Shown here piece after piece: positions 753 to 52,267 of a DNA stretch of 64,000 nt. The translations under genes and the position numbers were made by a program. The stretch comes from Sphingorhabdus profundilacus (GTDB lineage: Bacteria > Pseudomonadota > Alphaproteobacteria > Sphingomonadales > Sphingomonadaceae). The notes below the pieces were generated by a model that saw only the letters and a program-made list of their open reading frames with translations, was not told where the DNA came from and searched no databases. Where the stretch lies: contig NZ_SDWJ01000002.1 of assembly GCF_009769755.1 (NCBI RefSeq), forward strand, positions 744,001 to 808,000. The letters are read 5' to 3'. Position 1 is the first letter of the stretch; every line of letters starts with the position of its first letter.

Positions 753-1298
753 ATCGCAACCCCGCCTACCCGGCGCGCTATGACCCCACCTGTTAAAAGT
801 GGACCGCGCTACAACAATTTGATCACCGCCGAAAAAGTCCGGGTCATCGATGATGACGGTGAAAATCTGGGGGTGCTCTACACCCGCGAAGCGATAGCAC
901 AAGCGGCCGAAGTGGGCCTTGATCTGGTCGAAGTATCTCCGAACGCTGATCCACCCGTTTGCAAATTTCTCGACATCGGCAAATTCAAATATGAGGCCCA
1001 GAAAAAGGCCAACCTGGCCCGTAAAAGCCAGAAGACGCAGGAGATCAAAGAGATCAAGATGCGTCCGAACATCGATGACCATGACTATATGGTAAAGATG
1101 AAAAAGGTGGCCGAGTTCATTGAAGAGGGTGACAAGGTCAAGATCACGCTGCGTTTCCGCGGTCGCGAATTGGCACACCAGCAGCTGGGAATGCAGTTGT
1201 TGCAGCGCGTTCAGGCCGATACCGCCGATACGGCCAAAATTGAGGCCCATCCCCGGATGGAAGGGCGCCAGATGCTGATGGTGCTTTCACCGAAATAG
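753..1298 (+). CDS. infC: Translation initiation factor IF-3
   Basis: IF-3 binds the 30S subunit, keeps it from joining 50S and proofreads the initiator tRNA and start codon. The N-domain signature [18 protein letters not shown] and the basic linker leading to the C-domain ([18 protein letters not shown]) are present, ending at QMLMVLSPK. The start is inferred as ATC at 753, eight bases after GGAG at 741-744, giving 181 residues. The first in-frame ATG (780) has no ribosome-binding site and would remove a nine-residue leader, [11 protein letters not shown]-3 genes in other bacteria start at AUU, AUC or AUA for autoregulation, so this fits the family. The gene ends in a strong terminator and stands alone: rpmI-rplT lie 56 kb away. 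Confidence 0.93.
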
Positions 1299-50285: not shown

Positions 50286-50897
50286 TTAAGCGGCGGCGCG
50301 TAGATCTTCCATCCGTTTGAGATAGCGGGCAAGGACATCGATTTCGAGGTTCACCTGACGCCCGACGGCAAGGGTATCAAGCGTCGTCATCTGCGCCGTA
50401 TGCGGAATGATGTTCAGCGTGAACCGCACCAAGCCGTTGGATTGATCGGCAATTTCATTGACGGTCAACGAGATGCCATCAACAGTTATCGATCCTTTGG
50501 CCGCAATATAGGGCGCCAGTGAAGCAGGGGCCTGAACCGTAACTTTCCAGCTATCGCCGACCGGATCGCTTCCAACAATCTCGCCGACGCCATCAACATG
50601 GCCGGTGACGATATGCCCCCCCAGCTCGTCGCCAACTTTCAATGCCCGTTCCAAATTGAGTCGCGACCCTGCTTGCCATAATCCCTGTGCGGTGCGCGAT
50701 ATGGTTTCGGCTGACGCATCAACGGCAAAACAGCCATTACCCTTCTCCACCACTGTGAGGCATACGCCCGAGCACGCGATGGATGACCCGATGGCAATTT
50801 CGTCCATGGTATAATGGCACCCAATGACGAGGCGAAGATCCCCGCGTTGGTCAACAGAAGAGATCGTGCCGATATCGGTAATAATGCCGGTAAACAT
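50286..50897 (-). CDS. ribE: Riboflavin synthase, alpha chain
   Basis: It dismutates two 6,7-dimethyl-8-ribityllumazines into riboflavin. The 203-aa product has the duplicated lumazine-binding barrels: MFTGIITDIGTISSVDQRGD and GSSIACSGVCLTVVE in the first, GGHIVTGHVDGVGEI and GSITVDGISLTVNEI in the second. It ends with VNLEIDVLARYLKRM, typical of the family. Follows ribD by 18 bp. No FMN riboswitch is evident upstream. Confidence 0.97.
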   Translation of the reverse strand: MFTGIITDIGTISSVDQRGDLRLVIGCHYTMDEIAIGSSIACSGVCLTVVEKGNGCFAVDASAETISRTAQGLWQAGSRLNLERALKVGDELGGHIVTGHVDGVGEIVGSDPVGDSWKVTVQAPASLAPYIAAKGSITVDGISLTVNEIADQSNGLVRFTLNIIPHTAQMTTLDTLAVGRQVNLEIDVLARYLKRMEDLRAAA

Positions 50898-50915: not shown

Positions 50916-51887
50916 CTATAGCGCTCTATCGTAGACTTCGACGTGATCATTGCCAAGACGGCGTGCAAGAGAATTATGCCACCGCCCATGCGCGTCTTTT
51001 AAATCTTCCAAACCGATATCGCCCAAACACGCCGTTCCGGCGCCGATCAATATAGGTGCTCGGTATAAAAGCAGGCGATCAACCAAGCCGGCACGTAAAA
51101 ACGCAGATGCAGTCTTTGCGCCGCCTTCCACCAGCAACATGTTGCAGTCCAGTGATGAAATTTCGTCAACCGACCTCAAAACATCCCAACCGTCAGGTGC
51201 GGTACCACTGCCCAACATGACCTTGCGCGGACTTCGATTTTCCAGTCCGGGCAAACGGACATCAAGTGCCGGGACGTCGATCCTGACCGTTGCAGCGCCG
51301 ACCAAAATGGCATCGCTCCGTGCCCGCTCGACATGGGCGTGGGCCCGGGCGGATCCACCTGTAATCCATCGGCTTTCACCATTGGCCAACGCAATTTTCC
51401 CATCAAGCGAAGTGGCGAGTTTTAACGTCACAAACGGTCGCTGTCGTTCCAATCGGCTGAAAAAGCCTGCTAACTGTCTCCTCGCAACTGACGCCATGAC
51501 GCCGGTTTCGACCGTGATTCCAGCCTCTTTCAGTTGGTTAAAACCTTTTGTACTGGTGCGTGGATCGGGGTCGACAATCGCACCAACCACCCGTGCCGGA
51601 CGCGCTTCGATTAAAAGCTGTGTGCAGGCAGGGCCGCGCTCAGACACATGCGCGCAGGGTTCCAAGGTAACATAGATGGTTGCGCCTGTCGCGCTGCTGC
51701 CTGCCTGGGAAAGCGCCATGGCTTCTGCATGCGGCCTTCCGCCCTGCCCCGTCCATCCCCTGCCCAACACGATATGATCTTTGACAATGATGCAGCCGAC
51801 AGACGGGCTGTTAAGCGTGCAGCCAACACCACGTTCCGCCAGCGCCAGCGCGGCAGCCATATAATGTTCGTCAGCGTGAGAGGTTAT
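50916..51887 (-). CDS. ribD: Bifunctional riboflavin deaminase/reductase RibD
   Basis: RibD performs pyrimidine deamination then side-chain reduction early in riboflavin synthesis. The deaminase zinc motif is RPHAEAMAL with PCAHVSERGPAC; the reductase domain has FVTLKLATSLDGKIALANGESRWITG and NMLLVEGGA. Only ATG 51860 is a standard start, but the ten codons before it encode ADEHY leading into MAAALALAERG, matching the conserved RibD N-terminus (DEYYMxxAL). The only plausible start for these is ATA at 51887, seven bases after AAGGGAG and overlapping the upstream stop (ATAA). That gives 323 aa. If not, the start is 51860. Confidence 0.93.
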   Translation of the reverse strand: MTSHADEHYMAAALALAERGVGCTLNSPSVGCIIVKDHIVLGRGWTGQGGRPHAEAMALSQAGSSATGATIYVTLEPCAHVSERGPACTQLLIEARPARVVGAIVDPDPRTSTKGFNQLKEAGITVETGVMASVARRQLAGFFSRLERQRPFVTLKLATSLDGKIALANGESRWITGGSARAHAHVERARSDAILVGAATVRIDVPALDVRLPGLENRSPRKVMLGSGTAPDGWDVLRSVDEISSLDCNMLLVEGGAKTASAFLRAGLVDRLLLYRAPILIGAGTACLGDIGLEDLKDAHGRWHNSLARRLGNDHVEVYDRAL

Positions 51888-52267
51888 TTCTCAGCTCCCT
51901 TTGCTGCGGCTTGTTCGGCCCGTGCTTCTCGCTCTATCCGGTCAACATCCATGCCGACGGCCCTGCCGAAGGCTTTATAGGCCTCTTTCTCACGCGCTAT
52001 CATCTTGTCCTTCATCTTCTGACGCTCGGCAATCGCAGCCCTGGATTCTTCAATTGTGCGCGTGGCCGGCCAGCTTTCGACATAGATGATTTCACGCGGC
52101 GGCGGTTTTGATTTCTCCAATATGTCGAGATAAAATGTATATATGATGATCGCTGTCGGCACACATGCGGCCAGAAACAGCAACGGACTGTGATGACCCG
52201 AAGTGCGGAAAAACCCGATCAGGTCGGAACCTCCGCTTTTAAGTGATACGTCTTTGAAGAAGGACAT
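51884..52267 (-). CDS. Hypothetical membrane protein, 127 aa
   Basis: An unrecognised protein with one membrane helix (LLFLAACVPTAIIIYTFYLDI, about 29-49) and a long charged, probably coiled-coil C-terminus (ESRAAIAERQKMKDKMIARE; RIEREARAEQAAAKGAEK). It precedes ribD, with its TAA overlapping the proposed ribD start. The size and layout resemble conserved sphingomonad inner-membrane proteins of unknown role. Confidence 0.75.
   Translation of the reverse strand: MSFFKDVSLKSGGSDLIGFFRTSGHHSPLLFLAACVPTAIIIYTFYLDILEKSKPPPREIIYVESWPATRTIEESRAAIAERQKMKDKMIAREKEAYKAFGRAVGMDVDRIEREARAEQAAAKGAEK

Follow-up and report, generated by a model that had tools for sequence, protein, structure and literature searches.

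The ribD gene of the window (by which we mean the whole 64,000-nucleotide stretch of DNA that was analysed) appears to begin at an AUA codon and to be translated at a reduced level as a consequence; we assign this reading a probability of roughly 80%. Its two halves stand on different ground. The place of the start, its conservation, and the absence of the usual start codons (ATG, GTG and TTG) are supported by comparison of related genomes, and on that basis we regard initiation at AUA as very likely. The reduced output is an inference, made without protein or ribosome data.

The ribD locus and its start region

The gene lies on the minus strand (50916–51887; 323 codons counted from the ATA, plus the stop codon) of a 2.9-Mb genome whose genus is coded g1 here. 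Its frame matches TIGR00326 with a score of 268.5 bits (cut-off, 156.35), and both PF00383 and PF01872 are found in the product above their cut-offs. The protein (P0001) carries PHAEAM and EPCAHVSERGPAC, and it thus has both HAE and PC..C, which we take to be the zinc-site motifs of the RibD deaminase. The named relatives of this RibD at the top of the match list belong mostly to the Sphingomonadales. A search of the genome for a second ribD found none; the sole other match was TadA-like, at 34%.

Read along the minus strand, the start region consists of TGA (51893–51891), GAA, ATA (51887–51885), the codons ACC TCT CAC GCT GAC GAA CAT TAT, and the ATG at 51860 (51858–51860). This ATG encodes a conserved methionine, whose position we call the Met site, and no usual start codon comes earlier in the ribD frame: neither ATG, GTG nor TTG occurs between it and the in-frame TGA. 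The ATA, two codons 3′ of that TGA, is accordingly the only candidate start before ATG 51860. A Shine-Dalgarno match, AAGGGAG (51895–51901), is located seven bases 5′ of the ATA; the computed pairing with the anti-Shine-Dalgarno sequence is −6.9 kcal/mol before the ATA, as opposed to +0.1 kcal/mol before ATG 51860. The ATA also shares two bases with the TAA stop codon (51884–51886) of the upstream gene, forming the overlap ATAA. A preliminary description of this DNA had reported the in-frame stop, the AAGGGAG, the overlap with the TAA, and the want of a ribosome-binding site for ATG 51860, and each of these was found as described.

The upstream gene (51884–52267, minus strand) encodes 127 amino acids and has no Pfam or NCBIfam match. 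Nevertheless, it is conserved: homologues precede ribD in all 66 overlapping loci of a second genus, g38 (introduced below), and in 39 of 51 loci of other genera. The ATA therefore shares bases with the stop codon of a conserved gene, as a stop-start overlap would require, and the start of ribD is probably coupled to termination of that gene, an inference for which there are no expression data. The next gene downstream of ribD is ribE (riboflavin synthase; 50286–50897, minus strand; NF006767, 240.2 bits). It starts at ATG and was used as a control.

The in-frame ATA in two genera and beyond

Of 45 genomes of the same genus, 43 have ribD, and all 43 start regions were read. Every one of them has an in-frame ATA inside ATAA or ATAG at the end of the upstream gene, such that the upstream stop codon at the junction is always TAA or TAG. 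This retention in 43 of 43 loci exceeds chance. Relatives lacking the upstream codons had been named in the preliminary description as an observation that would refute an AUA start; the outcome, given below for 35 of the 43, favors that description instead. In these 35 loci, hereafter termed ATA-only, ATG, GTG and TTG are absent from the whole open frame 5′ of the Met site. In the ATA-only loci of this genus, every upstream walk reached a stop codon and none reached the edge of the sequence. The ATA and the Met site are separated by 8, 9, 10 or 14 codons, and the frame is preserved in every case. The Shine-Dalgarno energy before the ATA is −5 or lower in all 35 (median, −6.6), a value that is attained before the Met site in none of them and in 24.9% of 770 background windows from upstream genes. 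The ATA is consequently the sole Shine-Dalgarno-matched candidate in 35 of 43 same-genus loci, and seven of these have lost the fallback methionine as well, in agreement with the start first proposed for the window.

In the other eight loci, a usual codon follows shortly after the ATA: TTG in L112, and ATG in L115, L117–L121 and L123. A motif scan detected no Shine-Dalgarno match before the ATA of L117–L121 and L123. For this reason, these six loci, to judge from their sequences, probably start at ATG. In L112 and L115, the ATA and the usual codon cannot be told apart as starts by the same means.

The same ATAG was seen in two named metagenome-assembled genomes, L049 (Porphyrobacter) and L050 (Erythrobacter), and the L050 protein, used as a query, pointed to the genus coded g38. 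Among its 114 genomes, 106 had a match and 77 were read. Here, “ATA-only” denotes loci in which the 20 codons preceding the Met site include no usual start, a definition met by 59 of the 77; five others have ATAR with a usual codon after it, two have GTAG with a usual codon, and 11 are otherwise arranged with a usual start. A usual codon does occur 114–255 codons upstream in 12 of the 59, and in four ATA-only loci the upstream walk hit the sequence edge. The Shine-Dalgarno energy before the ATA is at background in this genus (−5 or lower in 13 of 59 loci vs. 33.1% of 1298 windows), and the Met site is still Met in 55 of 59. The case for g38 is thus one of codon evidence. Together, the two genera furnish 94 ATA-only genomes, 35 of which have the full set of evidence.

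One script classified the starts in 215 distinct genomes from the window's genus, g38 and others. The others comprise 95 genomes of 67 genera, of which 51 have a frame-0 junction and 44 do not; start assignment in these 95 was crude, most of all where the frame-0 overlap was lacking, and it does not form part of our main evidence. Outside the two genera, the ATA-only state was counted in a single genome, L328 (g59), where GGAGGAG precedes the ATA. Another, L160 (g85), was ATA-only according to the script and was not counted: five codons separate its ATA from the Met site, which is itself preceded, one codon earlier, by an ATG. On a fast protein tree (213 of the 215 proteins), at least 12 changes between ATA-only and the remaining states are needed, with five unassigned rows excluded from this count. 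It follows that the ATA-only state came or went repeatedly.

The junctions of the other genera include 46 TGA overlaps: GTGA in 15, TTGA in 13, CTGA in 11 and ATGA in seven. Eleven of the 46, including seven of the CTGA junctions, have another usual codon within 20 codons upstream. In four other Sphingomonadales (L034, L055, L045 and L170), ribD overlaps the upstream stop as CTGA, and the 20 codons that lead up to the Met site contain, with some exceptions, no ATG, GTG or TTG. CTG starts of ribD are possible in these four.

Brake, neutral start, or another start

We propose that ribosomes that terminate on the upstream gene would come to rest close enough to use the AUA. The strong Shine-Dalgarno match of the window's genus would help to position them there, and the normal initiator tRNA (anticodon CAU) would decode the AUA despite mispairing at its third position. 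Since AUA initiates poorly, the output of RibD would be held low, below the level that AUG would give, and selection would maintain this brake. That so many related species retain a weak start suggests a brake and not a mistake. Selection for weakness is inferred, and we favor it by a limited measure. The AUA start of ribD would then be regulatory, as such starts usually are; this, too, is surmised in the absence of expression data.

The competitor that survives best accepts the AUA start and makes it neutral: the upstream gene delivers the ribosomes, the identity of the codon matters little, and the single change from ATAG to ATG would cost the upstream stop. We consider this account improbable but worth serious consideration. 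The ATAG form is indeed the common one (74 of the 94 ATA-only loci), and the first base at the TGA overlaps of other genera, as enumerated above, is mixed. In favor of selection, no frame-0 ATGA junction was found in 120 genomes of the two genera, as compared to seven of 51 such junctions elsewhere. This lack is weaker evidence for selection than it looks, since ribD's own stop codon is also seldom TGA (2 of 41 in the window's genus and 12 of 77 in g38); the absence of TGA at the junction is partly a habit of the genomes of these two genera. However, the remaining 20 of the 94 loci have ATAA, which is one change from ATGA, a sequence that would keep the stop and provide an AUG. TAA and TAG were exchanged at the junction at least seven times on a genus tree, which was a quick one (15 of its 46 inner branches are starred).

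Also opposed to neutrality is the A before the stop, which is retained whatever the last residue of the upstream gene. In g38, the last codon is CAA (33 loci), CCA (18), TCA (4), CGA (3) or GGA (1); all end in A across Gln, Pro, Ser, Arg and Gly. The shares of these codons among their synonyms in the preceding 60 codons are 24/90 for CAA, 10/81 for CCA, 5/110 for TCA, 13/390 for CGA and 31/263 for GGA. The product of the synonymous usages is 5.9e-6 in g38; in the window's genus (Gln, Lys and Pro), it is only 0.012. Each residue was drawn once in this calculation, which is not a full phylogenetic test. Finally, ribE starts at ATG in 40 of 41 genomes of the window's genus (the motif was not found in one), in 74 of 77 of g38, and in 92 of 95 others. 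Weak starts are therefore not general in the riboflavin operon.

Far less credible is initiation at ATG 51860, in which case the ATA would merely combine the final base of the upstream coding sequence with the stop that follows, and RibD translation would not include the codons ahead of the methionine. The methionine is well kept, in 28 of the 35 ATA-only loci of the window's genus and, as stated, in 55 of the 59 of g38. Further, a ribosome that terminates at the TAA could start again about 25 bases downstream. But the site is Leu in seven of the 35 loci (L012, L014, L017, L018, L030, L114 and L122), and the next usual start there is beyond the catalytic HAE. The Leu codon is CTT in three of these loci and CTG in four, so for the latter four the codon by itself leaves a CTG start possible. 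The Shine-Dalgarno match is missing before the Met site throughout the 35, and the ATA stays in frame over several distances. Protein matches bear on the question in both directions. The TIGR00326 match begins only at residue 10, which is the methionine itself, and this counts against the upstream residues; the Pfam deaminase match and the NF008052 match both begin at residue 5, and the alignments to seven of eight matched PDB sequences start at residue 4 or 5, the remaining sequence being a C-terminal domain.

A −1 frameshift that would make RibD a product of the upstream gene has very little to recommend it. The two frames do overlap at the junction, and a Shine-Dalgarno-like sequence precedes it, but the spacing of that sequence is that of a start. 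Also, the codon before the stop is identical to its −1 partner (AAA/AAA) in only three of the 35 loci, and the commonest pairs (CAA/GCA in the window's genus and CAA/ACA in g38) mispair. With no general slippery site, fusion with the upstream gene was rejected. An isolated G-to-A mutation, or an error in sequencing, that made ATGA into ATAA in the window genome, for which a single change suffices, is refuted by the relatives, as most of the 43 same-genus loci and 59 of 77 in g38 share the state.

The tRNA complement was inspected as well. A special tRNA for AUA was rejected: none of the 42 tRNA genes (found by Rfam and typed with ARAGORN) has the anticodon UAU. Three have CAU and, by sequence reading, are the elongator Met tRNA (L201), a probable Ile2 tRNA (L208) and the initiator (L212). 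In the initiator (L212 1501–1577; G000:C2:1122401–1122474), A29:U41 takes the place of the third of the three anticodon-stem G-C pairs, which are described as conserved (PMC11497404). The same stem, matched as an exact pattern, is present in 90 of 149 family genomes and 59 of 82 genera. It does not, therefore, single out the genera with AUA, and the odd initiator was rejected as the cause of the AUA start.

Riboflavin control and comparison with known systems

An FMN riboswitch would likewise limit the expression of riboflavin genes. No match to this riboswitch (RF00050) was detected in the window or its genome, nor in any of 119 family genomes (89 genera, the window genome included); matches were obtained in seven of 14 control genomes. 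The larger scan used stricter filters. The lack of an FMN riboswitch in the family sample leaves room for another control of riboflavin synthesis, and the AUA start suggests, where the riboswitch was not found, a means of controlling vitamin B2 synthesis that can be tested. A bolder version holds that an IF3- and growth-dependent ribD start, at a weak codon (AUA or some other) joined to the stop of the upstream gene, replaces riboswitch control in the Sphingomonadaceae. We hold this version to be doubtful, given that ribD's own stops are also seldom TGA, and any control by IF3 is conjecture.

The start has consequences for annotation also: a gene finder restricted to ATG, GTG and TTG would misplace the RibD start and drop conserved residues, and in seven species it would drop the catalytic motif. 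Further, the 94 ATA-only genomes, which concern a biosynthetic gene present only once in the window genome, constitute a natural series for studying the purpose of a bad start codon. To our knowledge, AUA starts have been shown for only a few bacterial genes. An AUA start of ribD was not found in the open-access literature without preprints; that restriction makes the absence weak evidence. Attenuation by a non-canonical start is itself already known. What look new are ribD as its bearer, the fusion of the AUA to a TAA or TAG stop, and its wide occurrence (94 of the genomes read, drawn from two genera).

Measured against attenuation by a non-canonical start, ribD has no usual start at the right place (the window locus and 35 of 43) and is conserved in this respect (35 of 43 and 59 of 77). 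A strong Shine-Dalgarno match accompanies the start in 35 of 35 loci of the window's genus and in 13 of 59 in g38, which is below background. The four-base overlap with the upstream gene resembles the ATGA-type overlaps of translational coupling, of which a simple ORF scan finds seven in the window; the ribD junction differs in having an AUA start and a TAA or TAG stop.

A near-cognate start is also what ribD has in common with infC. The difference is the self-control of IF3; we know of no role for RibD in initiation. That infC encodes IF3 and controls itself is stated for E. coli (PMC13009471). The window has its own infC (753–1298, plus strand), with an apparent ATC start at 753–755 after AGGAG at 740–744. 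The gene is present in 43 of 45 genomes of the genus, and ATC follows GGAG in all 30 of the loci read; in four of these 30, a TTG is present as well, two codons 5′ of the ATC.

The same source describes a conserved AUA start in ccpN of Staphylococcus aureus and treats infC and citZ there as well (PMC13009471). In poor medium, the non-canonical starts of cvfC1, ccpN and citZ yielded about 10% of AUG output; in rich medium, the AUA of ccpN yielded up to 30% (PMC13009471). In vitro, IF3 favored strong third-base pairs, according to a second report (PMC10158994). From these reporter and in vitro data, a low and perhaps growth-dependent output of RibD would be expected. The ccpN start was demonstrated by ribosome profiling and reporters, and that of ribD is deduced by comparison only. 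The ribD gene is unlike ccpN in that its AUA is fused to the upstream stop, its product is an enzyme of vitamin synthesis, and g38 has no Shine-Dalgarno enrichment. The two genes are alike in an AUA that is kept across species, in a strong Shine-Dalgarno match (for ribD, in the window's genus), and in serving metabolism or its control.
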